DNA of 64,000 bases, taken from positions 1 through 64,000 of the IMG/VR virus record IMGVR_UViG_3300042516_001464. One strand, 5' to 3'. The position numbers were made by a program, and so were the translations under genes. How positions within the stretch are numbered: position 1 is the stretch's first letter; the number at the start of each line of letters is the position of its first letter. This DNA comes from a virus. This document shows positions 14,664-51,137 of the stretch, in pieces. The notes below the pieces were generated by a model. That model did not search any database and was not told the DNA's origin. It worked only from the letters and a program-made list of their open reading frames with translations.

Positions 14664-15518
14664 ATGGCAAAGAGAAAATACAATAGGCCTCAAACAATTT
14701 ATGAGGAGGAAATGAGTCCAGAAGAAAAGTATGGAACATCAAGATTTTTTGAATCATTAATTAGGTCTGATCCAGATTCACAATCAAGTTTTGATTATTC
14801 TCAACTTGATGAGAAGTATCCAATTAAATCTATTGGAGGAAGAATGCAACTTGAAGAGCAAAGGCGCAATGAAAATCCTTTTCTTGAAGAAGACATTGCT
14901 TATAGAACAAATATCATAAAGCAACGCGAATCAGAACTTGGGCTTAAAAAGGCTGCAAGAGATTTGGATATGTATGAATCGCAAATCAATCGCGAGGACG
15001 CAATACTTGAGCAAATTCCAGTTGCAAGGCAAAAACTATCCGATCTAGATGTTCGTGACCCTAATTTCATAAATAAGGCATACGATATTCAAGAACAGCA
15101 TCCATTAGCGTTTGAGAGTGATAAATTTCAAAAGTATATCTTTCAACCAATGCTTAATCGTAATTCGCGTTTGATTAGCCGAAAGCAGGATGGAGTAATA
15201 ACGCAAGAAGGGTTATCTAAAGCGATGGCAGAAATTTCAAAATATAACGAACTAATTGACGCTAGGGGCGAGGGGGTTGGTGCTTCAACGGAAGAGGATC
15301 GTTATCTTGGGTATTTGCAAAACCAAATTGACCAATTCTACGCGCAGAGGGGAATGGAGAATCCTAATGCAACTATGCCAATGCAAACACAACAAATGAA
15401 CCGACCAGAATCATTTTCATTTAACACTCCAGAAGAAGCGGAAGAGGCTAAAAGAAATAATATCTTGAAAGTAGGAGATAAAGTAATTATAGGTGGGAAG
15501 ACATACATTACTGAATAA
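14664..15518 (+). CDS. Hypothetical helical internal protein
   Basis: 284 residues, highly charged and helical over residues 45-230. It ends with a small K-V-G-D-K-V-I-I-G-G-K-T-Y beta element that resembles the end of an SH3-like strand pair. Its stop overlaps the giant gene start (TAATG), implying joint translation. Function unknown; probably delivered or assembled with the giant protein. Confidence 0.6.
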   Translation: MAKRKYNRPQTIYEEEMSPEEKYGTSRFFESLIRSDPDSQSSFDYSQLDEKYPIKSIGGRMQLEEQRRNENPFLEEDIAYRTNIIKQRESELGLKKAARDLDMYESQINREDAILEQIPVARQKLSDLDVRDPNFINKAYDIQEQHPLAFESDKFQKYIFQPMLNRNSRLISRKQDGVITQEGLSKAMAEISKYNELIDARGEGVGASTEEDRYLGYLQNQIDQFYAQRGMENPNATMPMQTQQMNRPESFSFNTPEEAEEAKRNNILKVGDKVIIGGKTYITE

Positions 15519-18500
15519 TGCCTTTCCGACTTTTAGATGAAGAGCCTAAAAAACTCGAAACAGAAATTACGCCTCAACAAACGCCAAGGATTGGGAGCTT
15601 TCGTCTTTTGGAAGACGAGCCAGCATTTGCTCAATCATCGCAACCTGCATACAAGTATGATGCTTCTCGTTTTCGCCCCAAGGGATTAACATCTACAAAA
15701 TCAACGCAAGAAGCCCCGGAAGAACAAAGTATCTTCCGTCAAGTAGCAGATATCCCACTTGGCATTGCCCGTGGCGGTGTGACTGGTATCAAGATGATGA
15801 CTGATATTCTTGGTGCTGATAATCCAGTATCAAAGTCATTAGCTGGAGTTGAGGGATACATGGCAGATTTGATGTCCGCTCAAGCAAAGGAAGATCAACA
15901 AGAGATTTCTCGCATTATGAAAGATGCCGAGGACAAGGGATTCGGCGAGCAGGTTAAGGCTGGTATTAAAGCGTTCAGCATTGCTCCAGTTGATATCATG
16001 TCTCAAGCGTTGGGAACAATGGCTCCTGTGCTTGCAACTGGTCTTGCTGGAAGCGCAGCAAAACTTGGAGCATTGGGGATTAGAGCGGTTCAAACTGGTG
16101 TTGGTGCTGGCATGGGTGCTGGCATGATTAAAGGCGAGATTTACAATGAGGTTAAAAACGAACTCATTAATTCTGGAACTCCAGAGGAGCTTGCCGAGAA
16201 AGCTGCTGTTGAAGCGCAATCTTACGGAGGAAAGAACCTAGATCAGATTTTACTTGGAGCAGGACTGGGTGCGGCATCTACATTGGGAGCAGAGCAAATC
16301 CTTACGAGGCTTATAACAAAACAAGGCGTTGCTCCATCTGCTGGTATTATATCTCGCACATTAAAGGGAGGTTTTACAGAAGCTATTCCAGAAGGCGTTC
16401 AAGCTGCACAGGAACAATTGGCAAAGAACGTTGCATTGCAGAGAGAGGGATTTGATGTTGACCCATCCCGTGGTGTTGTTGCTGCCGCTACGATGGAAGC
16501 TATTGCTGGCGCACCATTGGGTGGTCTTGCTGGAGCTGTTGAGCAGCCAGCTAAAGTTAAGACTCTTGAAGAGGAGAAATTTGAGCAGACCAATGAGATT
16601 GCAAGGAATGCTGCTGAAAATGGCGCACCACTTACTGCATCCGCACTTCAAGACAAAGCCGCCGCTAATCTAAATCAAGATGAGCTTGCAAGAAAACTTG
16701 AAGAAGAACTTTCGATTTCTGCCGTTAAACCATCTGTAGCCGCACCTATAGCTATTCCTACAAAAGATGAGTATGTCGCAAGGTATTCGGCTATTGCACA
16801 GGCAGCACCAGAAGAACTTACAAGAGCAGAGCAATCGTTCACAAACGAACTCACTACTGCCGATACAGAAGAGAAACGCATCAATGCACAGAACGCATTA
16901 GACGCAATTAAAGAAGTAAAAGCAGCAGCCGCTGCGCAACCACCAACAACATATGCCACTCAAGAAATCATCCAGCAACAAGGCGTTCGTGAAGAACCTC
17001 AAGACAGAACTCAAGTTGGGGCGACCACAGAAACAGGCGTTAGCGATAGCATACTCGACGCAACGAGAAGCAAAGAAGAAAGGCAAGTAGCCAGAGACAT
17101 CGTAAGCGAACTGCAAGCTGTAGCGAACAATACCGCCACAGGCGAGCAGATTGCCCGTCTATCGATGGAAGGACTCGTAGATGTCCGTAGAGGCCAAGCC
17201 ATCATTAACGAAGACGGTGAGGGCATTCTCGCGCAAGCACAAGCCCCATTGCCAAAGCTCACGCCAGAAGCAAGGGCTGCTGAAGTTGAAACTGCCCCAG
17301 CTACTCCGACTCCATCAGAACTTATCATTGGAGAAAAACCGCAAGTTTCTCCGATAGTAGGCGAGCAAGTTGCAGAGGCTACTCCAGCAGAACCAACTGT
17401 TAAGGAATCCTTGACAGTTCAGCCTGCACAAGCTGCACCCGTAGCTGCACCAGTAGAACAAGTAGTCACGCCACCAGTAGAGGTTGCACCAACCATTGCG
17501 GAGGCCGCTCCAGTTGAGCCGATTGCTCTTGCACCAGAAACTGCTGCTGTTGATAGATACACAGAGCTATCTCGCAATCCAAAAATCGGAACAGCTAAAG
17601 AACGAAAGGCTTTAGAACCAACTGTAGCAACAACAACATTCAAAACAAGTCGTGGCAGCACTTATTATATTTTGCCAGATGGGAAGATACGCCGAGACAA
17701 ATACTCTGGAACAACAAGTTACTCTGACCAGATTGCTTTTGTTTCTCCCGAAAACGCAGAAAAAATAAAAGAGATTCGGAATGAATATGAAGAAGGCAAG
17801 AATACTTCGGTTGAAATTACTCCAGAAGTAATCCGTTTTCGATTTAACGAAAAGATCGCAGAAGTTCCAATTGCTTCACAGTCACCGCAAGAAGGGCTTT
17901 CTCCCTTTGAACTATCTGGTGGAAGATACCCGCATTTAGGTGATCCGGTAGTATCTCCCGCACCAGTCACCGAGCAAGCTGCACCAGCAGAAGCTCCCGC
18001 GCCAGAGGGTGCGCCTGCCCCACAAGTTGAACAAGAAATTGAAGTAGGTGATGAAGCGTCTGTTAATCTCGCTGGAAGAAATGAAACTGTAACCATTGCT
18101 CGTATAGAAGACATCAACGGGGTTCCAACGGCATACTTTGATTATTTTGGATACAAGTCTCGACCATTAGCTGAAATGCAATTGGTTAAAAAATCAAAAC
18201 AAAACATAGCAAAGGCTGAAAGAAAAGCAAAAGAGGCAAAGGCATCTCAAATAGAAATTACTCCACCTAAACCAGAAGACTTTTTTTCAAATGAAGAAAT
18301 AGCAAGTCTTGTATCTGGAAAAGCTCCTGATGGATGGAAGTCCGACACATCTACACGCGATGATTTTTTTCTAACAGATACAAATGGGAAGCGTTGGAGT
18401 TTTAAGCCACAGTATGAAAATGGTGAAATTACATCAATTCTTATGCGTGCTGAAGGGCAAGTTACAGGCGTTACAATTACTAAAGCGCCCACTCCAGCAG

Positions 18501-21500
18501 TATCTGAAGCTCCAACTCAGCCAGAGGGCATCGCAGTAGGCAACCGCATCAAGTTAGGCAAGAGTCCACAGACATACACCATTGAAGAAGTAATTCCGCA
18601 GACAGCAACAGAGAGAGATTTGGGCGAGCAGTATTACTCTGTGAAGAACGAACGCACTGGAGAGGTGCAAGTAGTAGAGGCAATGGACATGAAGAAAGTT
18701 GGTGGGAAGAGAGCGCGGAAGATGGCAATTTCAGATGGAACGATTTCATACAATCAACTCCCAAGCAACATCCAGAAAGAAGCCGATTTTGTTCCTAACA
18801 AAGAATCAACATTGTGGAAGTTGGAGCAAGTATCCGTTGAAGACTTGATGGAGAATAGCCCCGCTGGAATGACTGGAGATATTTCTGAAATTGAAGGCTA
18901 TGATATAGATTCATTAATTAAAAGCATTAGGAAAGATGGAGTCAAGCAACCCATCGTGATGGTTCGCAATGCAGATGGATCAATTGATATTGAAGGTAAT
19001 CATCGAGTATATGCTGCGTATGAAGCTGGGCTTGATACAATCCCGGCTTATGTCCTACAAAAACAAGGCATTCTTAAACAGGCAGTCGAAGAGAAGATTT
19101 CTAAAACAGCATTGATTGATAAAGATGGAAGCATCATTAGCGCACCAGACAAAAATCACGCAATGCTAATGGAGGAGAGCCAGTTTAATTTGGATGCTGG
19201 CGAGTATCCTCCAATGGAGAACTATGGGTTTGTTACAAACTTTGGAAGATTCGTTGGTCAGAAGGAAGCGCAGGAGATCGCTCGTAATTCGCAGCAAGTT
19301 ATAGGAGGGCAGCAAATCAGCGGAGAGCTTGTTACTGCAATCAACGAAGAAGAGAGTGCGAATATTTTGAGGCTCAATGTCCAAGGTGCTTCTGGAAACA
19401 AATTCAATGAAGCAGGGTTCAAGAGATTCCCCGGCATTGCTGTTACGAGAACTAATTCTGAAACACTAACATCGCATCCGCTATACAATGCTGCCAAACG
19501 ATTCAACAATGTAGAGGCTGCTAAAATCATTGTTGATGAATTTGTAGACGATCAAATGGTGTTTGATGTGTTTACCAACATTGATCCAAACAAGCCAGCG
19601 TATATTGTGCCTGTTCTTAAAGGTGAAGCTGATTCAATGAATATGCTTCCAGTCGCATTGGCTGAAAAACTTTCCAATGCAAGCGGAGTCCCCGTGTGGG
19701 GTAACTTGATTCAAGCAACTTCAGAGCAAAGCACAGGCGCTGGGGTGAATGAAAAGACAGAGATATCAAGGCAATTCATGGGTGAAGCTCCTCCAGCCGG
19801 ATCGCAGATAATTATCGTTGATGACTATCTTGCTACTGGCAGAACAATTGCATCGCTTGAAAACATGACTGGAACAGCATCTTCTGTTGCGACAATAGCT
19901 TCTGGAAGATACGGAAATCAATATGGCTTAACTACTCAACGAGCAGAAAAACTCCTTGAGAAGGCAGGCATTACAAGAGAGAGATTTTATGAAATATATG
20001 GACTACAACCAGAACAAGCAATCACAGGAATCGAGGCCCAGGCTTACATCCTCAATGGGGCCGCTGGCGAAGGTGGACTCACAAGTAGATTCCCTGTCGA
20101 AAAAATTTCACCAAGCAATGAAGGAATTAAAAACATTGCGAATGTCCCAGAATCAGTAGTTCTATTTGCTGGTGGTGGGCTTACAGAGCTTGGACTTGTT
20201 GGGATTGTAAGAAATGGATATGTTGTTGAGGCCAATCAACGGATAGCTGAATTCTACGAGGAAGCTCATGGCGTTCCTGTAATTCAAGACTATGTCCAGA
20301 ATGTAAAGTTTTATGGTATTAATGGAGGTCATCTACACGCATCCCCCGTTTGCAAAAACTTCTCTACTGCTAAAAACAAACAACAAGTTACAGAGCAAGA
20401 TAAGATTATTGACAGAGAAGCTGCTGGCGCTGTAGCTCAAGCAATTAGGGACATACAACCAAATACTGTTTCTATTGAAAATGTAACTGGATACAAAGAT
20501 ACAGAATCATACAATTCCATTATCTCTGCGCTTGAGGAGAATGGTTATATTTATGATGCGAATTTTTACAACGCAAATGATTTTGGAGCGCCAACATCTC
20601 GCAAGCGTTTGATTGTTAGAGCAGTTAAAAAGGGTGGAGTTCTTCCAGAAATACGCAAGAAAAAGAAAAGAATGTCTTGGTATGATGCCGTTAAGGACAT
20701 CGTAAATGATTTGCCGGATCACGATATCAATGCCGCGAGGTATCCAGCCAGAATGATGTCCTACTTGGCTGCAAAGGGAATTGATATTTATAATGTTGAT
20801 CAACCGCTTTTGATTAGCGGAACTGATGGCAAAACATTCCGCAATGCAGATCAGCCAGCAATGACATTCTTGGCTACTCCAAGGGCGCTTAATATTATTG
20901 CTCTTCCTGGTGGCATCATTAAGAAGGTCACAGCACGGGCAATGGCAAGAATGACTGGCGTTCCAGATTCATTCCCGCTACCAGCAGATGAGGCTCTTGC
21001 AAAAACTATTATTGGAAACGGAATTCCTCCTGCGCTTACAAGATCGGTAATTGGCGACTTGATTCAGAAGAATGAAAAGCCAGAAGTTGCCGTTCCAAAA
21101 GTAGCAGCTGAAAAGAATCAATATACATTTGATGCAGCTGAAAAAGAAGTTACAAATTTCTTCGGTGAAATGCCGGAAGGAATTGTTATTGTAAACAATA
21201 CAACCGATCCAGACTTGCAATTTAAAGCCGGATACGATGTGAAGACAGGTGAAATTATTATTAACCTTGCATACATCGATAAGAAGGAAAATATCGGAGA
21301 CATTATCTCTCACGAACTTGGGCATTATATCTTTGGTGATCCGCAATTCCGGGCAGACTTCCAAGAGTTTTGGGACATGATGACTCCAGAAGAACAGGCT
21401 GAAGCTGATAGGATTATCAACCAATTTTACAACAACGAGACTAACGAAACCAAAATTGAAGAGAAACAGATTCGCGCATTCATGCAGTTGATCTCTGACT

Positions 21501-24500
21501 CTAAAGCTCAACCACAATGGAAGCAATTGCTAGATAGCATCAAGCGTTGGATGAACAAATACTTTGGAACTAAATTCCAAACAACAGATAGGACTGCATT
21601 GGCTATCCTTTCTACTGCAATGAATCGCTTTGCAAGCGGGGAGCGAATCATCCGTGAGATTGATTCTGGCGTGCTGAAGATGGCAGCAGAGCCAAAGCGT
21701 GAGAAGGTAGCAGGCAAAGAGCGTGGAGAGATCATCACCACTCCAGAAGGGATTATTAAGCAAACGCAAGAGGTGCTACGAAACAAGTTCTTTGATGGAA
21801 CGGAAGTTTCAGATAATGCAACTCAACAAGCGTGGAACTATATAGAGCAGTTGTTGGATATTAAATCCGGCGCGGCCAATGCGCTTGCAGGACAGATTAA
21901 CGATGTAGTTGATCAAGAGACGAATTCTGACTCCAGAATGGGGGCAAGTTTGTTTTCTGTATCTTTGGCTAACTATGCCGCGAAGCTCGCTGCTCAAGGT
22001 GACATGACAATGCTTCCATACATTATCCGCAGGATCAATCGTATGCCAGTTGATAACCTTGCTGGGGGCAGAAGCGAAGCTGGTGAAGCGTTGAGAGCTG
22101 CAAGGGAATATCAAATCGATGGATTCAATACGCTCAAGACAGAAGACAAGGCGAAGGTTGAAAGAACAGCAGCTACATTGTTTGGAACTGATAAGCCAAG
22201 CAAAGATCAAGTAAAGGTTGTTGAAGATGCTATTAAGGCTTCCGAGGATGAAACAATTGGTAATCCAGAGGATGTTGCCGCTGAAATTGAGAAGGTTGAG
22301 AATAGAACTGGCAGAAGGGTTGTTGACAAGGTCGAAGGTAAGATCAAGGAATCAACAGAACCAAAAAAAGAAGAGCTTCTTATTTCATTTGAGAATTTAG
22401 ATGCAGACAAAAAGATCAAAGGCATCACGCTTAAATACAGCCCACAGAAAGTAAATGTAGTCAAAAACATTCAGAACCTCATCATCGGCAAGATGGTTGA
22501 TTATCGAAAAGCACTTGTTAATCAAGGCGCAGGTGGACTTGAATCTACATTCTGGCAGACGATGAGCAGTCTGGAAAACAAGCCCGGACCATTGGGTGAG
22601 ATTGACCAGGCTCAAAACAACGAGCTTGCAAGAATTGTTAAGAACACGCTTATCAAACTTGGGCTTCAAGGTGAGCCTAAGAATACAAAAATGACGGACA
22701 TTGAGAAGGTTGCGTCCATCTTGAACGAGAATAAGTTGAGTGATGAGAAGAGACTTGAAGCTGATCAACGGATTGTTCAAGAGATTGAGCGTAGAAGGCA
22801 GAGTGAACTTGCATCCGGCTCAAGCCCAGAAGCTGTAAATGCAAAATACGATGTCATTCTCGATGCTTGGAATGAAGCGATGAGCAGGCAGTTGAATATG
22901 CCGATTAGCGATAATATGCTTCAGCGTTTGCTGAAATCGGAAATAAAACAACGCAATACTCAGATTAGCGAACTCATCAATGAGAATGACGGAAGAGTTG
23001 TTGAGGAAGTTAAGAACGACATTGTTGATTCTATTATTCGCAGAATCTATGGTGTTTCTAAAGAGTCCGAAACAGGAATTGAGATGGATGAGGATTACAG
23101 CAATCTTCAGTCATATCTCAAGCAGACGATCAACAATATGTATGCAACAGCTATCCAGAAGAAGAATGCTGCATACGCAAAGCGTCAAGCTGAGAGAAGC
23201 CTCAAAAATAATGTTGATGCACAAGCGCAATCAATCATCAATCAACTCTCAACGGAGTTAAGTGATACCCCATCATTCTCGCCGCAAATAGAAAACAAGG
23301 TTAAGGTTATTGTTCAACAAGACTTGAGGCAAAATCCAAACATGGGACGTAAGCAACCATGGACAAGCCAGCTTACAGCAAAGCTCATTGACGCTGGTGT
23401 GGACGAGACACAGGCTCAAACAATCTCTGAACTAACCTGGAGACAGCATGAGATTAAGAAGATGGATCGTGATCTTAAGGAACTCAAGACAGCAGCTGAA
23501 AAAGGATCGCTTGCCGTTATCATTGATCGAATCAAAACAACGCCATTAGAGAAGCAGCAAGAGCCTAACTGGATGCAAGGCGTGATTCGTGAATACTTGG
23601 TTGAAGCCGGACTATCTGATAAAGCTGCTGAAACTGCCGCGAAACTATACGAAAGCGTAATCTCTGAAAAGTTCGCAGAAGCGAAACAAAAAGCATTTGA
23701 AACAACACTTAATAAATCCGCTCCGTGGCAAAACTATCTTTCAAGAAATAGCCGACTTGGCAAGGACGCATTGAAGAGAATTCAAGACGCGATTAGAACT
23801 GGAGTTCTTGATCCAACGCAAAATGTCGAAAGCATTATTGCAAGAGAGAATGGGTGGTCTGGTTTTACTAAAGAACAATTCCAACGCATTGTTCAATTGG
23901 ACAATGTTATATCCAGTCCAGATACAGACCAAGTTACAAAAGCGGAGGCAATGGACGAGCTTAACAAGATCATCGTTAAGGCGAAGATTCCAGTAAGATT
24001 CAAGGATGCCATCGGCGCATATTATGTTGGTCAGGCGCTTATGGGTATTCCAACGCTAACCGTTAACATTGCGTCACCTATTGGGTTCTCTGTCAGAAAT
24101 CTTATCACAGATATCGGACGCTATGCGTTTACTGAACCATCGAGAATTCCAATGGCATTTGAAACATTCTTGGATAGTATGAAGTCTTGGTATAACCAAA
24201 GCTCATACGCATTCAGAAACCAAATCTACATGAATGATGTGGTTGAGTATTTGAATGGTCAGAATGTTCTTCGTGAATTGTTTGACAAAGGAAAAGCTCA
24301 ATGGGCTAAAGGTGAGTATGCGAACGGCATGGCAAATATGCTTGTTGGCATGACGCAAATTACTGGTCGAGTTCTGTCGGCTTTGGATCAAGGCGCTATC
24401 TCTATGTTGGAGAATCAAAACATTACGAGATATGCGATGGAGGCAATGAAGCAAAGAAACATTCCGCAATCAAAGCGGAAGGAGATTGCCAACATGATCT

Positions 24501-26011
24501 TTGATACACGCAGAAGGACATATGCAGAAAATGTTGCTGCTGGCATGGAGAAAGATCGCGCTGGTGTGCTGGCTGATTTGGCAGTCAGAAGCGAGATTAT
24601 CAATGCGCTTTCTCCAGAAGGAATTGATTTCAAGGATGTATTGGATTCTGCTATTAACGACTCATTGCAATCTGTTGGTAGAAACAAGACAATTAATGTT
24701 GATGGAATTGTTAAGGAGAATGAAAGGCTATCTGATGCGGGTGTGCTGTCTTATCTTCCAATTGAATTCCTCCAAAAGATAGCATCCGGCGCGGCAAGTA
24801 GTGGGCCATTGATGCAGGTATTCTCCAAGATGGTTTATGGATTTGCTCTTGTCCCAGCCAGAGTATTCCATACAACAGCCTGGTATTCTCCATATGGATT
24901 CATTCGACTTGGTATTGATGCTTATAAAAAGAATAAGGGCGAAGATTCGCCATATGCGATGAGTTTGCAAACAGACCTGCAATACAAGCAAAGGCTTACA
25001 GACGCTATCGCCGGATCAATTGTCATGCTTGGACTCGCCGCTCTTGCAAGTGGATCAGCTGATGATGACGAAGAGAAGAAGTTTAAGATTGTTATTACAG
25101 GTAATGGTCCAAGTTATTCAGCAGACAGGCAGTTCTTTGATGCGTGGCATAAAAAGTATAAGCCATACAGCATTAATATTGTTATGGGCGATACCGTTAT
25201 TCCAATCAACATTGGACGAGGCGGCGAGGCATTGTTCTTCCCAATTATGCTTGCTGGCGCATTGGACGATTGGGGAATTAAAAAGAAACTTAATCTTACC
25301 AAAAAAGAACCAGAAGACTTGAACCTCGCTGTGGAAGTGTTGGGGTCATCATTCTTTGCCTTGGCTCAAAGAGGGCCATATGCTGCGTTTACCAAACCAT
25401 TGTTTGATGCATCTAAAGAAGGCAAGATTACAGAAGAACTTGTTAGCCAAGCCGGGTTCTTTGGTAAAACATTTGTTCCGATATTAGGTTCATCTCTTTC
25501 AAGGAATATTTCTGACTTTATTAACGATCCAATTGATAGGTCTTCATTGGAGGGAGCTATCTACGCTAATACACCTATTGTTGGTCCGTGGATGGGCGCT
25601 AAAGCTCTTAATGCATTGGGGCAACCAATTAGGGCGGACGATTGGGGAGATAGGCTATTTAAGCTCGGAGTGCCAGTTGTATTCTCATTCCCTAAAAATA
25701 CTCCAGAGAATGAACTCAATGAGCTTATCCTTCAGAAAGGAAGTGGACCATCAATCCCAACAAGAGCCAATGCGCAGAAACGATTTGGTGATGTTCTGAC
25801 AGATAAAGAGTTTGAAACATATGTGCGTGAATATGGACGAGTTGTGTCTGACAAGATGTTCAAGAACAGGAAACAACTTGAAAAGATGTCTGTCAAAGAT
25901 TACGATGATGAACTTCAAAGATATGTCACGGGATACTCAATCGATGGAATTAAAATTACTGGGGCATCAGATATGGCAGTTCGTGCTGTAAGAAGGATGC
26001 GAGGCGAATGA
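15518..26011 (+). CDS. Giant polyvalent protein: ParB-like, PRTase, C5 methylase and Zn-peptidase domains
   Basis: 3497 residues. The N-terminus repeats F-R-L-L-x-x-E-P twice, then has an Ala/Gly-rich hydrophobic part (about 165-320) and a long Ala/Pro/Glu linker. Domains seen: ParB/sulfiredoxin-like (1100-1185, with E-G-N-H-R); phosphoribosyltransferase (1300-1490, PRPP loop I-I-I-V-D-D-Y-L-A-T-G-R-T); cytosine-C5 methylase (1540-1850, F-A-G-G-G, S-P-V-C-K-N-F-S with Cys1612, E-N-V, R-K-R-L); zinc peptidase (HELGH at 1932-1936). A long helical part follows, then a C-terminal domain with hydrophobic patches (about 2820-3190). This matches the known class of phage polyvalent proteins injected with DNA. 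The methylase motif has Val and Lys where PCQ is usual. Confidence 0.85.
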   Translation: MPFRLLDEEPKKLETEITPQQTPRIGSFRLLEDEPAFAQSSQPAYKYDASRFRPKGLTSTKSTQEAPEEQSIFRQVADIPLGIARGGVTGIKMMTDILGADNPVSKSLAGVEGYMADLMSAQAKEDQQEISRIMKDAEDKGFGEQVKAGIKAFSIAPVDIMSQALGTMAPVLATGLAGSAAKLGALGIRAVQTGVGAGMGAGMIKGEIYNEVKNELINSGTPEELAEKAAVEAQSYGGKNLDQILLGAGLGAASTLGAEQILTRLITKQGVAPSAGIISRTLKGGFTEAIPEGVQAAQEQLAKNVALQREGFDVDPSRGVVAAATMEAIAGAPLGGLAGAVEQPAKVKTLEEEKFEQTNEIARNAAENGAPLTASALQDKAAANLNQDELARKLEEELSISAVKPSVAAPIAIPTKDEYVARYSAIAQAAPEELTRAEQSFTNELTTADTEEKRINAQNALDAIKEVKAAAAAQPPTTYATQEIIQQQGVREEPQDRTQVGATTETGVSDSILDATRSKEERQVARDIVSELQAVANNTATGEQIARLSMEGLVDVRRGQAIINEDGEGILAQAQAPLPKLTPEARAAEVETAPATPTPSELIIGEKPQVSPIVGEQVAEATPAEPTVKESLTVQPAQAAPVAAPVEQVVTPPVEVAPTIAEAAPVEPIALAPETAAVDRYTELSRNPKIGTAKERKALEPTVATTTFKTSRGSTYYILPDGKIRRDKYSGTTSYSDQIAFVSPENAEKIKEIRNEYEEGKNTSVEITPEVIRFRFNEKIAEVPIASQSPQEGLSPFELSGGRYPHLGDPVVSPAPVTEQAAPAEAPAPEGAPAPQVEQEIEVGDEASVNLAGRNETVTIARIEDINGVPTAYFDYFGYKSRPLAEMQLVKKSKQNIAKAERKAKEAKASQIEITPPKPEDFFSNEEIASLVSGKAPDGWKSDTSTRDDFFLTDTNGKRWSFKPQYENGEITSILMRAEGQVTGVTITKAPTPAVSEAPTQPEGIAVGNRIKLGKSPQTYTIEEVIPQTATERDLGEQYYSVKNERTGEVQVVEAMDMKKVGGKRARKMAISDGTISYNQLPSNIQKEADFVPNKESTLWKLEQVSVEDLMENSPAGMTGDISEIEGYDIDSLIKSIRKDGVKQPIVMVRNADGSIDIEGNHRVYAAYEAGLDTIPAYVLQKQGILKQAVEEKISKTALIDKDGSIISAPDKNHAMLMEESQFNLDAGEYPPMENYGFVTNFGRFVGQKEAQEIARNSQQVIGGQQISGELVTAINEEESANILRLNVQGASGNKFNEAGFKRFPGIAVTRTNSETLTSHPLYNAAKRFNNVEAAKIIVDEFVDDQMVFDVFTNIDPNKPAYIVPVLKGEADSMNMLPVALAEKLSNASGVPVWGNLIQATSEQSTGAGVNEKTEISRQFMGEAPPAGSQIIIVDDYLATGRTIASLENMTGTASSVATIASGRYGNQYGLTTQRAEKLLEKAGITRERFYEIYGLQPEQAITGIEAQAYILNGAAGEGGLTSRFPVEKISPSNEGIKNIANVPESVVLFAGGGLTELGLVGIVRNGYVVEANQRIAEFYEEAHGVPVIQDYVQNVKFYGINGGHLHASPVCKNFSTAKNKQQVTEQDKIIDREAAGAVAQAIRDIQPNTVSIENVTGYKDTESYNSIISALEENGYIYDANFYNANDFGAPTSRKRLIVRAVKKGGVLPEIRKKKKRMSWYDAVKDIVNDLPDHDINAARYPARMMSYLAAKGIDIYNVDQPLLISGTDGKTFRNADQPAMTFLATPRALNIIALPGGIIKKVTARAMARMTGVPDSFPLPADEALAKTIIGNGIPPALTRSVIGDLIQKNEKPEVAVPKVAAEKNQYTFDAAEKEVTNFFGEMPEGIVIVNNTTDPDLQFKAGYDVKTGEIIINLAYIDKKENIGDIISHELGHYIFGDPQFRADFQEFWDMMTPEEQAEADRIINQFYNNETNETKIEEKQIRAFMQLISDSKAQPQWKQLLDSIKRWMNKYFGTKFQTTDRTALAILSTAMNRFASGERIIREIDSGVLKMAAEPKREKVAGKERGEIITTPEGIIKQTQEVLRNKFFDGTEVSDNATQQAWNYIEQLLDIKSGAANALAGQINDVVDQETNSDSRMGASLFSVSLANYAAKLAAQGDMTMLPYIIRRINRMPVDNLAGGRSEAGEALRAAREYQIDGFNTLKTEDKAKVERTAATLFGTDKPSKDQVKVVEDAIKASEDETIGNPEDVAAEIEKVENRTGRRVVDKVEGKIKESTEPKKEELLISFENLDADKKIKGITLKYSPQKVNVVKNIQNLIIGKMVDYRKALVNQGAGGLESTFWQTMSSLENKPGPLGEIDQAQNNELARIVKNTLIKLGLQGEPKNTKMTDIEKVASILNENKLSDEKRLEADQRIVQEIERRRQSELASGSSPEAVNAKYDVILDAWNEAMSRQLNMPISDNMLQRLLKSEIKQRNTQISELINENDGRVVEEVKNDIVDSIIRRIYGVSKESETGIEMDEDYSNLQSYLKQTINNMYATAIQKKNAAYAKRQAERSLKNNVDAQAQSIINQLSTELSDTPSFSPQIENKVKVIVQQDLRQNPNMGRKQPWTSQLTAKLIDAGVDETQAQTISELTWRQHEIKKMDRDLKELKTAAEKGSLAVIIDRIKTTPLEKQQEPNWMQGVIREYLVEAGLSDKAAETAAKLYESVISEKFAEAKQKAFETTLNKSAPWQNYLSRNSRLGKDALKRIQDAIRTGVLDPTQNVESIIARENGWSGFTKEQFQRIVQLDNVISSPDTDQVTKAEAMDELNKIIVKAKIPVRFKDAIGAYYVGQALMGIPTLTVNIASPIGFSVRNLITDIGRYAFTEPSRIPMAFETFLDSMKSWYNQSSYAFRNQIYMNDVVEYLNGQNVLRELFDKGKAQWAKGEYANGMANMLVGMTQITGRVLSALDQGAISMLENQNITRYAMEAMKQRNIPQSKRKEIANMIFDTRRRTYAENVAAGMEKDRAGVLADLAVRSEIINALSPEGIDFKDVLDSAINDSLQSVGRNKTINVDGIVKENERLSDAGVLSYLPIEFLQKIASGAASSGPLMQVFSKMVYGFALVPARVFHTTAWYSPYGFIRLGIDAYKKNKGEDSPYAMSLQTDLQYKQRLTDAIAGSIVMLGLAALASGSADDDEEKKFKIVITGNGPSYSADRQFFDAWHKKYKPYSINIVMGDTVIPINIGRGGEALFFPIMLAGALDDWGIKKKLNLTKKEPEDLNLAVEVLGSSFFALAQRGPYAAFTKPLFDASKEGKITEELVSQAGFFGKTFVPILGSSLSRNISDFINDPIDRSSLEGAIYANTPIVGPWMGAKALNALGQPIRADDWGDRLFKLGVPVVFSFPKNTPENELNELILQKGSGPSIPTRANAQKRFGDVLTDKEFETYVREYGRVVSDKMFKNRKQLEKMSVKDYDDELQRYVTGYSIDGIKITGASDMAVRAVRRMRGE

Positions 26012-46340: not shown

Positions 46341-46739
46341 TCAATCTTTCTTCAAGAGTTCCTCAATGATCTTTTCCGTTACTTCATGCAGCGATGGATA
46401 ACATAGAACATGGAACGATGCGCCATGCTTCTTGATAAATGCCGTCCAATCTTTATGCTCTTCTTTAGTGAGCTTGATCTTCTGAGGTCTTGCCTCGCCT
46501 GCCTTACGGACGATTTCCATCAGCTTGTCTTGCTTCTTGTGCGCGGCAGCTTGGATTTCAGCCCGGTCTGGATAGACGCACTGCCGGATGCTGGTGCAGC
46601 CTGGTGCTACCTTGACGAGCCAGTAGCCTTCATCAAGCCCGTGGTATGCGTTAGGATCATTGATTGGGATATATCGCTTCCCGACCTTGCGGTAGAGTAT
46701 ATCTGACTCTACTTGTGCTATGCGTTGTTGTGCGTTCAT
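46341..46739 (-). CDS. Hypothetical protein, first gene of the leftward operon
   Basis: 132 residues from the ATG at 46739, chosen because a promoter ends nine bases before it; an in-frame upstream start at 46802 would run into the divergent promoter. Mixed alpha/beta with Cys pairs C-T-S-I-R-Q-C. No family recognised. Confidence 0.55.
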   Translation of the reverse strand: MNAQQRIAQVESDILYRKVGKRYIPINDPNAYHGLDEGYWLVKVAPGCTSIRQCVYPDRAEIQAAAHKKQDKLMEIVRKAGEARPQKIKLTKEEHKDWTAFIKKHGASFHVLCYPSLHEVTEKIIEELLKKD

Positions 46740-46748
46740 GCAAAAAAT

Positions 46749-46780
46749 ATCTTGCACTAAATACAGTGTTGCGTCAATAT
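46749..46780. promoter_or_regulatory. Overlapping divergent promoters
   Basis: Rightward TTGCAC (46752-46757), 17 bases, CAATAT (46775-46780), nine bases to the ATG at 46790. Leftward TTGACG (46777-46772), 17 bases, CAAGAT (46754-46749), nine bases to the ATG at 46739. The -35 and -10 boxes interlock, so the two operons probably compete for polymerase. Both transcripts would be nearly leaderless. Confidence 0.5.
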
Positions 46781-46789
46781 CTGATTTCC

Positions 46790-46963
46790 ATGAAACACAC
46801 ATTCATTCACCTTGGCTGCGAGGTTAAGATCGCAGGTAACGATGTCACAATTTATCGGAAAGACGGAGGTATTGATAAGATGAAATTAAAAGTAATCTCA
46901 GATCAAGACACCGCTGAAGAGTTCATCAAGGACTACATCACGCTCACTATTGTTAAACAATAA
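46790..46963 (+). CDS. Small hypothetical protein (57 aa)
   Basis: 57 residues, mixed alpha/beta, start at the ATG behind the rightward promoter. Its end overlaps the ATTGTTAAACAAT palindrome (46949-46961). No family recognised. Confidence 0.55.
   Translation: MKHTFIHLGCEVKIAGNDVTIYRKDGGIDKMKLKVISDQDTAEEFIKDYITLTIVKQ
46949..46961 (+). promoter_or_regulatory. ATTGTT-type palindrome
   Basis: ATTGTTAAACAAT, a 13-base palindrome covering the last codons of the small gene and upstream of a consensus-like TTGACA (46977-46982) that could start transcription of 47011-47433. Confidence 0.4.
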
Positions 46964-47010
46964 ACCAGAAAAACGATTGACAAATGACAATTGTTTTTTA
47001 GGCTTATTGC

Positions 47011-47433
47011 ATGAGTTGCATACCAGACATTCAAACCACAAACGAAATGTATAATCTATATCTAAAAGGATATAGTATTTCTCAAGTTGGAAAAGCGTTT
47101 CAAGTATCAAGGCAAACCGTATTCCAGAGATTTAAAAGAGCGGGAATGGAACTTCGATCAAAAGCGCTTTTGCCATTCATGGTTTTTAATGGGAAAAAAT
47201 ATACATTAAGAAATAATGGATATTTAGCCTGCACAGGTGGAGTTCGCTCTTCAATGCATCGCGATGTTTGGTGTTTTCACAATGGGGAAATACCAGAAAA
47301 TTATGACATTCATCACATCAATGGAAACAAAACAGACAATCGTTTAGAGAATCTACAAATTTTACCTAAATCAGAGCATACAAAACTGCACGGATTTAGG
47401 GGAAACCAACACACAAAAAATAGAAACAAATGA
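47011..47433 (+). CDS. HNH homing-type endonuclease with N-terminal HTH
   Basis: 140 residues: a helix-turn-helix (about 20-42, S-Q-V-G-K-A-F-Q-V-S-R-Q-T-V) for DNA recognition and an HNH_3 part with D-I-H-H-I-N-G-N-K-T-D-N-R-L-E-N-L. The order is HTH then HNH. Its stop overlaps the start of the WPTP-repeat gene by ATGA. A second HNH module lies inside that gene, so this region has probably received two separate nuclease genes. Confidence 0.8.
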   Translation: MSCIPDIQTTNEMYNLYLKGYSISQVGKAFQVSRQTVFQRFKRAGMELRSKALLPFMVFNGKKYTLRNNGYLACTGGVRSSMHRDVWCFHNGEIPENYDIHHINGNKTDNRLENLQILPKSEHTKLHGFRGNQHTKNRNK

Positions 47434-49724
47434 AACCATGCACAATAATAATACCATCGTCCCTTACATCAGTCTTTGTTCCGGCTATGAAGGCATCGGA
47501 ATTGGACTCCACCGCTGTATCCGAAATCTTCGCTGCATCTCTTACTGCGAGAGGGAATCATTCGCCATCGCAAACTTGGTTGCGAAAATGGAAAAAGGAT
47601 TACTGGACTCAGCTCCTGTTTTCACAGATGTCACAAATTTCCCATGGGGAGACTTCACTCCATACATGGCTAAAGGAATTTTGTCCTTTGGATGGCCGTG
47701 TCAACCAGTCTCAAGCGCAGGAAAGCGAAAAGCAACAGAAGATGAGCGATGGTTATTCGACATCATCGCAGATGGAATTTCAATTATGCAACCCGGAATG
47801 CTCTTCGCAGAAAATGTCGAAGGACTCTTATCAGCAAAAATGCCAGACGGATCAAGCGTCTTCGGACACTGCATCGAGAGATTGGAGAAGCTACATTATA
47901 AAGTTGAGGCAGGAATATTCAGTGCGAGCGAAACAGGCGCTCCGCACCAACGCAAAAGAATCTTTATCCTGGCCTACCGCGAGGAGCAGGGATTGGAAGG
48001 ACTCAGGGAACTTGAGTCAAACTTCCTATGGAATGACATTGGGCAGGATGGCGCAGCAGAATGCGAATTGGCCTACGCCAGCGGTGATGGATACAACGGG
48101 AGGCAGCTACAAGACGGAATGGGTAGATGGAAGGGCGGTCAGCTACCACAATCACAAAGAGGAGAATCCGGTAGCTTACGGGGCCAAACTTTCGGATGCA
48201 GTGGCGAATTGGCCTACAGCGAGAACATCGGATTGCAAGAATCCATCAATACAGAGAATGAAAGTTGGATCGGATGGTGGAAACAAAATCCAGCTGCGGG
48301 AAGCAGTAGCGAAGGAGGAGATGAGTTGTTCCAATACGGAGGAATTAGTGTGGTTAACCCCAACGACAACACAAATACAGAGGCGGGATATGCAGAAGCG
48401 GATAGACTATCGGGAGAGCATAGGCCGGAAGTATGTGCCGGGTTCATTGGAGGAACAGATGCAGCATCACTCAAACGAACCAGTGAATTGGCCGACACCT
48501 ACAACAGCGGAAGCTGGGAAGATATCAAACCAGCCGAATTACGGACAGATATGCTTGAGCAATCATCCGGCAATTGTTGGAACTCCCAATCGTCCGAAGG
48601 GGATCAAAGATGGCCTTCTCGCCCAGGACAAACACAATACGCATGGGAACCACCCAGAACTATTGGAAAAATGGAAAATGGTTCCTGGTTGGGGCGACAA
48701 ATATCAAGTCAGCAATCACGGAAGAATGCAGTCCAAGGCGAGTGGGGATTGGAGAGAGATGACCTTAACAATCAAGGACACGGGATATCTGAATGCGAGC
48801 TTGAGGCACGAAGGAAAACAGAAAAAAGTAACGATCCACATTCTGGTTGCGATGCTGTTTCTTGGGGAAAGGCCAAGTGGATTGGTGATAAATCACATAG
48901 ACGGCAACAAGTTGAACAACTGCATTTGGAATCTGGAATATGTGACAGCAGCAGAGAACAACCGCCATGCTCAAATGATGGGTTTGAATTGCACGAAAGG
49001 AGAATCCAATCCAATGGCGAAGCTCAATACAGACCAGGTAGAGGAGATACTACAATCAACGGAATCGCAGTTAGTAATAGCGAAGCGGATGAATGTATGC
49101 CAACAAACCATATCGTTGATTCGTTCTGGAAAAAGGTGGAAAGGTTTGAAGCAAGAGTCATGGCCGACACCAACGATGCAGGACGGCAAGCAGGGAGGGA
49201 TAACTCCATCTCAGATGGTGGAAGGAGCTGGTCACACGGGACTGCTTCACATTGCAGCAATAAAGCAAGAGCAATGGAGGACACCATCTGTAGCGGAAGC
49301 AAAGAATCAAAATACATCAACACAAGTTTATCTTCAGAACCAAGTCGGAGCTACTCCGAAACAATGGGCGACTCCTCAAGCGAGCGACCACGTGGAGGGA
49401 CGCAGGACGGACTTGGACAGCAATCAGAAATGTTTGGGGAGAGACATGAAGAAGTGGGCGACTCCGAGTGCGTTCGACTTCAAGGATGGGGAGAGCAGGG
49501 AACAATGGGAGAAGAGAGCTGCATTCCAAGCGGAGAAGGGCGTGAGTCTTCAACTTCCGCTCAAGAGCCAATCGATACAGGAGGCGGGAACGATGAGTCC
49601 CAGTTCAGCAAAATTGAATGCGAGATGGGTCGAAACTCTCATGTCGCTTCCAATGGGATGGGTATGCCCGTCATGTCCAGCCTCTGTGATTCAGAACTGG
49701 AAGAAATTTATGAGTGGATGGTGA
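47430..49724 (+). CDS. WPTP-repeat protein overlapping the methyltransferase, with embedded HNH endonuclease
   Basis: 764 residues in the frame -1 to the methyltransferase. Nine repeats start at W181, W214, W261, W308, W354, W578, W616, W646 and W676; the pattern is W-P-T-P-x-x-x-D-x-K or close to it. Between the fifth and sixth repeat (about 412-576) lies an HNH endonuclease: a NUMOD4-like start (V-P-G-W, Y-Q-V-S-N-H-G-R), HNH with V-I-N-H-I-D-G-N and N-L-E-Y-V-T, and an HTH tail. The C-terminus L-N-A-R-W-V-E-T-L-M-S-L-P-M-G-W looks like a conserved ending. I recall similar (W/L)PTP-rich proteins close to methylases in other phages, but could not check. Function unknown. Confidence 0.6.
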   Translation: MKPCTIIIPSSLTSVFVPAMKASELDSTAVSEIFAASLTARGNHSPSQTWLRKWKKDYWTQLLFSQMSQISHGETSLHTWLKEFCPLDGRVNQSQAQESEKQQKMSDGYSTSSQMEFQLCNPECSSQKMSKDSYQQKCQTDQASSDTASRDWRSYIIKLRQEYSVRAKQALRTNAKESLSWPTARSRDWKDSGNLSQTSYGMTLGRMAQQNANWPTPAVMDTTGGSYKTEWVDGRAVSYHNHKEENPVAYGAKLSDAVANWPTARTSDCKNPSIQRMKVGSDGGNKIQLREAVAKEEMSCSNTEELVWLTPTTTQIQRRDMQKRIDYRESIGRKYVPGSLEEQMQHHSNEPVNWPTPTTAEAGKISNQPNYGQICLSNHPAIVGTPNRPKGIKDGLLAQDKHNTHGNHPELLEKWKMVPGWGDKYQVSNHGRMQSKASGDWREMTLTIKDTGYLNASLRHEGKQKKVTIHILVAMLFLGERPSGLVINHIDGNKLNNCIWNLEYVTAAENNRHAQMMGLNCTKGESNPMAKLNTDQVEEILQSTESQLVIAKRMNVCQQTISLIRSGKRWKGLKQESWPTPTMQDGKQGGITPSQMVEGAGHTGLLHIAAIKQEQWRTPSVAEAKNQNTSTQVYLQNQVGATPKQWATPQASDHVEGRRTDLDSNQKCLGRDMKKWATPSAFDFKDGESREQWEKRAAFQAEKGVSLQLPLKSQSIQEAGTMSPSSAKLNARWVETLMSLPMGWVCPSCPASVIQNWKKFMSGW

Positions 49725-49825
49725 AGTGTGAGAATCGCACGGATGAATTACGCTTGCTGGGTAATGGCGTGGTTCCGGCAACAGCAACGAAAGCATTCAT
49801 AACTTTATTCAACAAACTCAAATGA
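47438..49825 (+). CDS. Cytosine-C5 DNA methyltransferase with very long spacer
   Basis: 795 residues. Motif I S-L-C-S-G-Y-E-G-I-G (12-21), motif IV F-G-W-P-C-Q-P-V-S with catalytic Cys88, motif VI E-N-V-E-G (125-129), motif VIII H-Q-R-K-R-I-F-I-L (170-178), motif X L-L-G-N-G-V-V-P-A-T (773-782). The gap between VIII and X is about 595 residues, far more than the usual target-recognition region, and has short repeats such as E-L-A-Y, E-L-A-D-T, M-A-D-T and V-G-D-S, produced by the same DNA that encodes WPTP in the other frame. The start is eight bases inside the overlapping gene. Likely protects phage DNA from restriction. Confidence 0.8.
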   Translation: MHNNNTIVPYISLCSGYEGIGIGLHRCIRNLRCISYCERESFAIANLVAKMEKGLLDSAPVFTDVTNFPWGDFTPYMAKGILSFGWPCQPVSSAGKRKATEDERWLFDIIADGISIMQPGMLFAENVEGLLSAKMPDGSSVFGHCIERLEKLHYKVEAGIFSASETGAPHQRKRIFILAYREEQGLEGLRELESNFLWNDIGQDGAAECELAYASGDGYNGRQLQDGMGRWKGGQLPQSQRGESGSLRGQTFGCSGELAYSENIGLQESINTENESWIGWWKQNPAAGSSSEGGDELFQYGGISVVNPNDNTNTEAGYAEADRLSGEHRPEVCAGFIGGTDAASLKRTSELADTYNSGSWEDIKPAELRTDMLEQSSGNCWNSQSSEGDQRWPSRPGQTQYAWEPPRTIGKMENGSWLGRQISSQQSRKNAVQGEWGLERDDLNNQGHGISECELEARRKTEKSNDPHSGCDAVSWGKAKWIGDKSHRRQQVEQLHLESGICDSSREQPPCSNDGFELHERRIQSNGEAQYRPGRGDTTINGIAVSNSEADECMPTNHIVDSFWKKVERFEARVMADTNDAGRQAGRDNSISDGGRSWSHGTASHCSNKARAMEDTICSGSKESKYINTSLSSEPSRSYSETMGDSSSERPRGGTQDGLGQQSEMFGERHEEVGDSECVRLQGWGEQGTMGEESCIPSGEGRESSTSAQEPIDTGGGNDESQFSKIECEMGRNSHVASNGMGMPVMSSLCDSELEEIYEWMVKCENRTDELRLLGNGVVPATATKAFITLFNKLK
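48663..49157 (+). mobile_element. HNH endonuclease module inserted in the dual-frame gene
   Basis: About 495 bases encoding NUMOD4-like, HNH and HTH segments, in frame with the WPTP gene and flanked by WPTP repeats on both sides. The methyltransferase frame stays open across it. No target duplication was seen. Boundaries are approximate. Confidence 0.6.
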
Positions 49826-50004
49826 CAAACGAACAGAAGGTTTGGCTTGCACTCCAGTCTGCAAAGACTGATATTATTCTTGCGATTTCTGATTACAAAA
49901 AACCAGATCGCGCAGCTTGCATGGATTGGGTAGACCAAGCCACAGCAAAGTTAATGGAGGTTTACGCAATACTGCGAGACGACAAAGGAGGATACGAGCT
50001 TTAA
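49822..50004 (+). CDS. Small helical hypothetical protein
   Basis: 60 residues, amphipathic helices, coupled to the methyltransferase by ATGA. Ends tail-to-tail with the minus gene, the two stops overlapping at 50002-50003. No family recognised. Confidence 0.55.
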   Translation: MTNEQKVWLALQSAKTDIILAISDYKKPDRAACMDWVDQATAKLMEVYAILRDDKGGYEL

Positions 50005-50267
50005 TATTTCGGAGCAATAATGTGGTAATGTGGCGGGTGTTCAAACCTTGGCGGGTCTGCATCTGGTAAACAAGTAGCCATTCCCGTAACCACATAAAAC
50101 GGGAACTCCAAAGTATCGTTAAACAATACTTGAACACTACAATCGCTTAGTGTATTGTCCAAATTTGCTGTAGAGATACAGTCATTCGCGTGAGAACGAA
50201 TGCAACGCAAGATTAAATTGAAACCATATATATCGACTACCTCTCGTAGATCATTCTCACCCGTCAT
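50001..50267 (-). CDS. Hypothetical protein, minus-strand insert
   Basis: 88 residues, mixed alpha/beta, soluble. It is the only minus gene inside this plus-strand stretch, so it is probably a separately acquired moron-type gene. A palindrome-like ATCGTTAAACAAT (50115-50127) lies inside it. No family recognised; confidence comes from length and context only. Confidence 0.45.
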   Translation of the reverse strand: MTGENDLREVVDIYGFNLILRCIRSHANDCISTANLDNTLSDCSVQVLFNDTLEFPFYVVTGMATCLPDADPPRFEHPPHYHIIAPKY

Positions 50268-50309
50268 TTCAACGGTCTTGCGCTACGAGGGGGGTCGGCC
50301 CCATTTATT

Positions 50310-51137
50310 ATGAATGAATTGAAGAAGGAATTTAGAGGCGTGTGGATTCGCGCCAGTCTATGGAGACGACAAGACTTAACATGGTTTGAGAAATGCCTAA
50401 TCGCTGAGATTGATTGCTTCGCTGGAAATTGTTTTGCAAGCAACGCATACTTAGCGGAGATGATGGGAACAACTGAGTCTCGTTTAGCAAATGCTCTGAG
50501 CAAATTGAGAGGCATGGGATTGATCATTGATGGAAGTTTCAATGGTAGAGTTCGCCAGATTTTAGTGTCAAATGAAGTATCATCTGACCCAACGGCAGGG
50601 TTCACACAGGAGTTAAAGCAGGGTTCACCTATATGTGAAGGCAGACTTAACCCCAGTGTGAACATAGATACTACTATAGAACAAAGCATAGAACATACTC
50701 CTTCGGAGTTTGAAAAATTCTATTCTGCATACCCTCGTAAAATTTCAAAAGCAAACGCTGAGAAGGCATGGAAAAAACAGAAGTGTGTCCTTGCCGAAGT
50801 AATGCCAGCACTTCAGAAACAAATGAAGCTATGGAACGATCCTCAATACATTCCTCATCCAGCTTCATGGCTCAATGGCAGAAGGTGGGAGGACGAATTA
50901 CCGAGCGGTAATAAATCTGCCTCAACGCAATCAAATGTACGAGCAGTCATACCGAGCGGTAACATTGATCCGTCAACCAAGAAGAAGCAATGGTATACAC
51001 TCTGCGAGGAGCGTGGAGAGAAGCAAGCATTCAAGGATTGGCTAATGGAAACCCGGCCTGAAGAATGGAGTGATTTCCTGCCGTCAATGGATGTCCGCTG
51101 GTGGGTTGAATTTTGTAATAGACCAGTTGAGTTTTAG
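50310..51137 (+). CDS. Phage replication initiator-like protein (replisome organiser)
   Basis: 275 residues. An N-terminal winged-helix region (about 25-75, with F-A-S-N-A-Y-L-A-E-M-M-G-T-T) is followed by a linker. The C-terminal domain carries F-Y-S-A-Y-P-R-K, A-W-K-K, and I-P-H-P-A-S-W-L-N-G-R-R-W-E-D-E, the hallmark of phage replication initiator/replisome-organiser C-termini. It would bind the origin and recruit helicase. A candidate origin lies at 60030-60830. Confidence 0.75.
   Translation: MNELKKEFRGVWIRASLWRRQDLTWFEKCLIAEIDCFAGNCFASNAYLAEMMGTTESRLANALSKLRGMGLIIDGSFNGRVRQILVSNEVSSDPTAGFTQELKQGSPICEGRLNPSVNIDTTIEQSIEHTPSEFEKFYSAYPRKISKANAEKAWKKQKCVLAEVMPALQKQMKLWNDPQYIPHPASWLNGRRWEDELPSGNKSASTQSNVRAVIPSGNIDPSTKKKQWYTLCEERGEKQAFKDWLMETRPEEWSDFLPSMDVRWWVEFCNRPVEF

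Follow-up and report, generated by a model that had tools for sequence, protein, structure and literature searches.

An HNH nuclease module inserted within a dual-coding phage gene leaves the overlapping C5-methyltransferase frame open

Multispecific phage methyltransferases exist, and the small subunit of EcoHK31I is encoded in an alternative frame within the large one. By its description, M.EcoHK31I carries motifs I-VIII and X on the large subunit, together with a predicted recognition domain, and motif IX alone on the small subunit (PMC3404938). The same source describes M.AquI, a split C5-methyltransferase, as having motifs I-VIII on one chain and motifs IX and X on the other (PMC3404938). 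In mycobacteriophage ShiLan, the gp65 methylase contains an HNH endonuclease, the ShiLan domain, which is flanked by zinc fingers and has a GTG start and a TAA stop of its own (Arsenault et al. 2025, PMC11855218). The locus considered here lies in a stretch of 64,000 nucleotides (nt), the window, which comprises positions 1 to 64,000 of a virus record of 67,811 bases (IMG/VR, IMGVR_UViG_3300042516_001464). Two long open reading frames (ORFs) overlap there almost completely on the plus strand: frame A, encoding a protein with WPTP modules, and frame B, a C5-methyltransferase frame (Table 1). An HNH module is inserted in frame A, and frame B stays open across it.

As in the account of the ShiLan domain, this module lies within a phage DNA methylase, out of its frame, and the methylase frame is open; a hidden HNH of this kind is already known (PMC11855218). 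New here is a stopless HNH of another type, in frame with a second conserved protein. Unlike the ShiLan domain, it has the order NUMOD4-HNH-HTH (HTH, helix-turn-helix) and continues a second conserved, full-length ORF. Instead of an own start and stop within the insert, it offers a possible TTG start at 48663, 4 nt inside, and no stop before the one that ends frame A at 49722-49724. ShiLan gp65 itself has a DPPYGL motif, in a locus cut at its start, and looks like another methylase type. The module shares its domain order with free-standing phage NUMOD4-HNH endonucleases of phrog_59 (E 1e-49 for the frame A HNH against PHROG), at about 31-41% identity among the HNH matches listed. Those endonucleases, in contrast, are separate genes; the nine compared contain 4-32 stops over the whole length of the equivalent frame.

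Relatives were collected in two scans and are numbered here as loci (L). The first, with a frame A profile, gave the best 80 of 489 relatives, which are therefore selected on frame A; the second, with frame B only, gave the best 80 of 588, including near-repeats and contigs from the first. In relatives, the frame B anchor WPSRPG..QY.WEPPR mostly leads straight into a WPTP unit or into the C-terminal motif. The HNH follows it instead in the window and in contig 3300020048_000987 (L001, to which L007 and L008 also correspond). The 5' flank of the insert ends in ...CCCAGA, the 3' flank restarts as AGAGTCATGGCCGACACC, and the corresponding site in many insert-free relatives reads CC(A/C)AGAGTCGTGG.

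The first-pass annotation had described a complete module, NUMOD4-like, HNH and HTH, at 48663-49157, in the WPTP frame and with WPTP repeats before and after it. Pfam domains and ORFs agree on the frame and on the flanking units. The insertion is likewise upheld, with its ends revised to about 48659-49156 by comparison with relatives; AGA stands at both ends, so that a shift of up to 3 nt is possible. NUMOD4 and the nuclease domain are recognised as such, the latter as HNH_3, and PF01844, the Pfam HNH family, has no match in the window's own record. The Pfam match to the HTH is weak (CENP-B_N, E 0.093, under the cut-off), and the stretch can be aligned with the corresponding part of the free-standing homologues. 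Six of the nine homologues stop within about 20 residues of the module's C-terminal end point, and three run on further. Relatives lacking the segment were found, both frames are kept in them, and the joint could be located at the anchor. Because insert-free relatives retain both frames, the nuclease entered a gene that was already dual-coding, as had been proposed.

Frame B contains no stop over the insert, and this openness is not due to chance. The original estimate, (61/64)^165, was crude, and its conclusion is confirmed by shuffles and simulations. When the HNH residues are held fixed, synonymous shuffling leads to an expected 8.1 frame B stops with the module's own codons and 14.6 with phage codon usage, and neither set of 5000 shuffles included a stop-free sequence. 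In composition-matched simulations, 20,000 of each kind, the stop-free fraction was 0 for mononucleotides, 0.00015 for a dinucleotide Markov model and 0 for codon order. The codons of the HNH show the same avoidance: none of 52 ends in T where T would create a frame B stop, as against 29 of 112 elsewhere (Fisher p 5e-6). Elsewhere in the phage, 25 other genes were divided into 1664 overlapping 166-codon windows; none of these is open in the equivalent frame, and one is open in the other alternative frame. The free-standing homologue with only 4 stops is a gene at 75% G+C, as compared with 44% here. The reverse direction is weaker: with frame B residues fixed, about three frame A stops are expected over the insert, and the no-stop fraction is 0.008-0.018. 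Since the two carriers share common ancestry, the avoidance counts as one event.

Comparison of the two carriers suggests which frame selection holds. The insert region differs at 22 of 513 nt; 20 of these differences are silent in the HNH frame, where about 23% would be expected to be, and 20 alter the methyltransferase frame. At the residue level, 3 of 171 positions differ in frame A and 19 of 170 in frame B. Frame B over the insert thus seems constrained merely to stay open, and the HNH sequence appears to be what selection preserves. The proposal that the host methyltransferase was kept intact consequently stands for openness and fails for conservation. In the methyltransferase N domain, 86 of 564 positions differ between the carriers. 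The window and L001 cannot be aligned at about 48010-48600, between well-matched flanks, as if the module array had been exchanged as a block. A reading of homing from the low divergence of the insert was dropped, other stretches of the gene being equally close. Among L001-L094, judged by the best HNH match, an HNH lies within the gene only in L001, L007 and L008, and none was found in the 80 loci of the frame B scan. The HNH-carrying genes among the loci examined are therefore those of the window and one other contig, and a close search of IMG/VR for further HNH relatives returned only that carrier. The earlier wording that a nuclease has colonised the gene holds as regards insertion; with two carriers known, the nuclease may be active and may be spreading.

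The dual-coding nature of the host gene is observed across many loci, in which both frames are kept and conserved; both are presumably translated. Of the 80 loci picked by frame B, 79 have an uninterrupted frame A between the domain start and either the motif match or the ORF end (219-461 codons); in every one of the 80, the third frame is broken by 7-30 stops. Over the catalytic domain, frame A is open in every distinct locus (58/58 below 95% identity, 42/42 below 90% and 17/17 below 80%), and the third frame is open in none. The first scan likewise returned long ORFs in both frames in nearly all loci. The likeness of frame A between loci exceeds that in synonymous shuffles of frame B, with a mean z of 4.5 over 100 comparisons of divergent loci, some pairs being repeated; frame A stands above the third frame in 97% of them. 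Paired starts are also common. ATGTGG or ATGTGA, in which a frame A ATG overlaps a frame B GTG, occurs near the start in 63 of 80 loci, and ATGs of both frames lie within 12 nt of each other, as in the window, in 21 of the 79 distinct loci of the first set. Among the matches listed in the open-licence literature there was no published account of an overlapping-frame phage C5-methyltransferase family.

Five public phage records that were inspected annotate one frame only. The WPTP frame is annotated in L095 (Ssp-JY39) and L099 (Cr-LKS3), and the methyltransferase frame in L006 (C75C1), L096 (RcBigEagle) and L097 (a Klebsiella phage). In L096-L100, which are more distant phage C5-methyltransferases, the +1 frame of the C-terminal half likewise holds WPTP units, together with an LNPxxVEWLMGxP-like or similar stretch; L096, L097, L098 and L100 have 2-5 stops in the +1 frame of the first 180 codons.

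The conserved motifs appear to be divided between the two frames. Frame B carries motifs I-VIII and X, and motif IX is missing from that polypeptide; motifs are numbered by the C5-methyltransferase scheme, with motif IX as in M.HhaI. Residues 11-187 of frame B match PF00145 (E 1.2e-27), the frame matches M.HhaI at the sequence level (E 2.6e-9), and motif X appears near its end as RLLGNGVVP. Frame A ends in a KLNPRWVETLMGLPVGWT-like sequence that is best read as motif IX, in view of single-frame intermediates, of phrog_1008 and of the arrangement in three relatives. A profile was built from 17 frame A tails, the window's included, so that the window's own score is by construction. It places the motif in frame A in 76 of 80 loci and in frame B in none; one of the remaining loci has it in the third frame, and three have no match above 10 bits. 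Against the window's frame B it scores -5.8 bits, that is, no match.

The same profile matches the single-frame proteins ShiLan gp70 and JKSyngboy gp4 directly before motif X (16.7 and 21.8 bits). ShiLan gp70 has motifs I-VIII, LLPTP..DGDGG units, RLAPAFSEWMMGWPAGWVT and motif X, and the end of JKSyngboy gp4 is similar. The order of elements in such single-frame phage C5-methyltransferases with PTP units (I-VIII, PTP units, IX-like, X) resembles that at the present locus; in the gp70 type, however, everything lies in one frame, and the alternative frames contain stops. The independent profile phrog_1008 ('DNA methyltransferase') matches frame A of the window, best over residues 67-275, and that of L005, L045 and Ssp-JY39, as well as the C-terminal half of ShiLan gp70 (E 2e-61). 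L020 (with L087, whose start has the same sequence) and L037 carry both motif IX and motif X in frame A, their frame B stopping short of X; the division described for M.AquI is similar (PMC3404938). Unlike those of M.AquI, the chains here overlap in different frames. The separation of motif IX from I-VIII and X in the window agrees with the description of M.EcoHK31I (PMC3404938). The two differ in that the predicted recognition domain of M.EcoHK31I is on the large subunit, whereas here the variable WPTP array shares the frame of motif IX (PMC3404938).

WPTP modules differ in number and order and recur between phages under a loose clustering, in which 341 modules from 78 loci form 41 clusters (18 of a single module, 15 spanning at least 3 loci). 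Because single linkage lumps 173 modules in one cluster, shuffling of modules between phages is supported only loosely. A variable, unalignable array of this kind suits exchangeable modules with a probable role in DNA recognition. Pfam and NCBIfam searches with HNH-free WPTP frames returned just PAG (E 0.069) and ZmpA (E 0.037), both far under the cut-off.

Structure models of the relative L045 are consistent with a divided enzyme. Its frame B model is confident over most of residues 4-180 and over 347-366, with a predicted local distance difference test score (pLDDT) above 85 for most blocks of the catalytic domain, and matches the fold of M.HhaI (E 4e-13). At residues 182-303 and 323-346 pLDDT falls below 50; between motifs VIII and X, where a recognition domain of the M.EcoHK31I type would be expected, the model has no ordered domain, and it shows no ordered small domain. 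Frame B alone therefore seems to miss the DNA-recognition part of a C5-methyltransferase, and the remaining motif seems to be located in frame A, whose model has a confidently predicted helix spanning the motif IX stretch (mean pLDDT of the block 87). The view of frame B as the methyltransferase is borne out for the catalytic part. It is probably not the whole enzyme, since it lacks motif IX and an ordered domain between VIII and X, and for the same reason the WPTP protein probably makes up the enzyme's other half.

The explanation that we consider quite probable is a two-polypeptide C5-methyltransferase encoded in overlapping frames, with a NUMOD4-HNH-HTH element inserted at a module boundary of the beta subunit. 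Frame B would be the alpha subunit, with the catalytic large domain and motifs I-VIII and X, and frame A the beta subunit, with the WPTP array, as the probable means of DNA recognition, and motif IX. A homing-type NUMOD4-HNH-HTH gene would have entered directly after the WPSRPG..WEPPR anchor, in the beta frame and without a stop of its own. Its product may form part of beta or arise from an internal start. Read in the alpha frame, the insert would add about 166 unconserved residues to a linker that varies in length and is modelled as disordered. The extra length would fall within the variable array of beta and the disordered linker of alpha, and both subunits may tolerate it, provided that the insert is stop-free. 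Because free-standing homologues carry many stops in the equivalent frame, survival of the first insertion needs consideration: the stops could have been purged later, during a period in which alpha was not needed or was provided by other means; alternatively, the element could have come from another two-frame host. Subunit assembly, nuclease activity and homing are all presumed here.

A broader proposal, for which we regard the chances as evenly balanced, is that a widespread phage methyltransferase consists of interlocked overlapping-frame subunits with paired starts, that its recognition-module array is an entry site for mobile DNA, which has to be readable in both frames, and that the HNH is the first lineage of this kind seen, matching the frame of one subunit and cleared of stops in that of the other. 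If the two-polypeptide explanation is true, a mobile gene has been accommodated by two proteins simultaneously, and phage WPTP proteins (phrog_1008) are explained as the missing half of overlapping-frame methyltransferases. The stop-avoidance signal, no T before AAN, AGN or GAN codons, could serve for finding other hidden nucleases, and the persistence of function in fully overlapping genes becomes a directly testable question.

Several observations weigh against the two-polypeptide explanation. On the side of dual coding, the third frame also reaches a mean z of 2.3, so that the frame A signal may partly reflect shared descent. For one gene by itself, moreover, finding frame A open across the catalytic domain is no more than mildly improbable (no-stop fraction 0.028 or 0.006); the evidence is strong because it comes from many loci. 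L179 is an exception, with two frame A stops and the motif in the third frame, and in L186 and L187 (2504-3043 in each) frame B has a stop after codon 179, downstream of which motif X persists in that frame. By eye, no strong ribosome-binding site was seen before 47430. With regard to motif IX, the link depends on two single-frame intermediates and phrog_1008. A PDB profile search with the motif IX alignment found no C5-methyltransferase to E 10, and Pfam did not recognise the motif in pieces of frame A. L079 has its IX-like motif in the third frame and motif X in the WPTP frame, frame B ending before the latter. The frame A model of L045 contains confident islands but is of low overall quality (mean pLDDT 54.7), and its comparison with PDB folds gave no match better than E 2.4. 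Lastly, the insert has just two carriers, whose identity is patchy along the whole gene, with nothing special about the insert.

Other explanations differ in how the HNH, or the two frames, would be used. The HNH may be a hidden element translated independently from an internal start (TTG 48663 or ATG 48678), as proposed for the ShiLan domain, which provides the precedent (PMC11855218). The position of the TTG agrees with this, as residues from there onward align near the N-termini of free-standing homologues. An internal product would, however, continue through the WPTP modules to 49724, whereas the ShiLan HNH has its own stop by the published account (PMC11855218) and in locus L110, and we hold this possibility to be rather doubtful. 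Less likely still is domestication of the HNH into a functional component of the methyltransferase or of the phage, such as a nuclease guided by the WPTP modules. The stop-free, in-frame fusion would fit such a role, as would the purifying selection seen in the HNH frame when the two carriers are compared, but the HNH is missing from the other dual-coding loci examined.

Programmed frameshifting could instead join frames A and B into one methyltransferase, without two starts. L020/L087 and L037, with motifs IX and X both in frame A and a frame B that ends before X, speak for this; where X is in frame B, a single ribosome would need two shifts, and paired starts in both frames are common, which makes frameshifting very improbable. 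Chance or composition, with one frame spurious and its length meaningless, finds some footing in the low number of frame A stops expected over the insert, a weak direction taken alone. It is contradicted by the shuffles and simulations, by the likeness of frame A and by the loci in which both frames are open, and deserves scarcely any credence. Removal of the insert as an intron or intein would agree with its clean position between two units and is just as implausible, as both frames are open and no splicing is needed. A search of Rfam to E 1 across 46500-50500 yielded no intron family and just three weak matches of other kinds, far under the cut-off, and the Pfam scan showed no intein domain.

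Table 1. Positions of the overlapping frames, the HNH insert and the neighbouring gene in the window.
Feature	Coordinates	Strand	Basis or remark
Frame A ORF, 764 aa, encoding the WPTP protein with the HNH within (proposed beta subunit)	47430..49724	+	ORF list; phrog_1008
Frame B ORF, 795 aa, the C5-methyltransferase frame with motifs I-VIII and X (proposed alpha subunit)	47438..49825	+	PF00145; M.HhaI
Paired start codons ATGAAACCATG (frame A ATG and frame B ATG, 8 nt spacing)	47430..47440	+	Sequence
Catalytic large domain, motifs I-VIII (frame B residues 11-187)	47468..47998	+	PF00145
Conserved anchor WPSRPGQTQYAWEPPR, frame B, 5' of the insertion	48611..48658	+	Comparison with relatives
Inserted HNH module, 498 base pairs, frame A; open in frame B	48659..49156	+	AGA at either end; ends +/-3 nt
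NUMOD4 (frame A residues 413-459)	48666..48806	+	Pfam, E 3.8e-8
HNH_3 nuclease domain (frame A residues 469-512)	48834..48965	+	Pfam, E 1.2e-12
C-terminal HTH-like stretch of the HNH module	49056..49130	+	Sub-cut-off Pfam; homologue alignment
WPTP modules downstream of the insert	49161..49592	+	Earlier modules at about 47970-48600
Motif IX-like stretch KLNARWVETLMSLPMGW (frame A residues 723-749)	49596..49676	+	Profile; no frame B match
Motif X RTDELRLLGNGVVPATATKAF, frame B	49736..49798	+	Sequence
Separate free-standing HNH_3 gene, directly upstream	47011..47433	+	Its stop overlaps the frame A ATG (ATGA)

The position of the free-standing HNH_3 gene is occupied by an ORF with a weak HNH match in L002, L004, L009, L010, L011, L014 and L021. 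Among the 25 background genes of the phage, the longest by far is an ORF of 3497 residues at 15518-26008.

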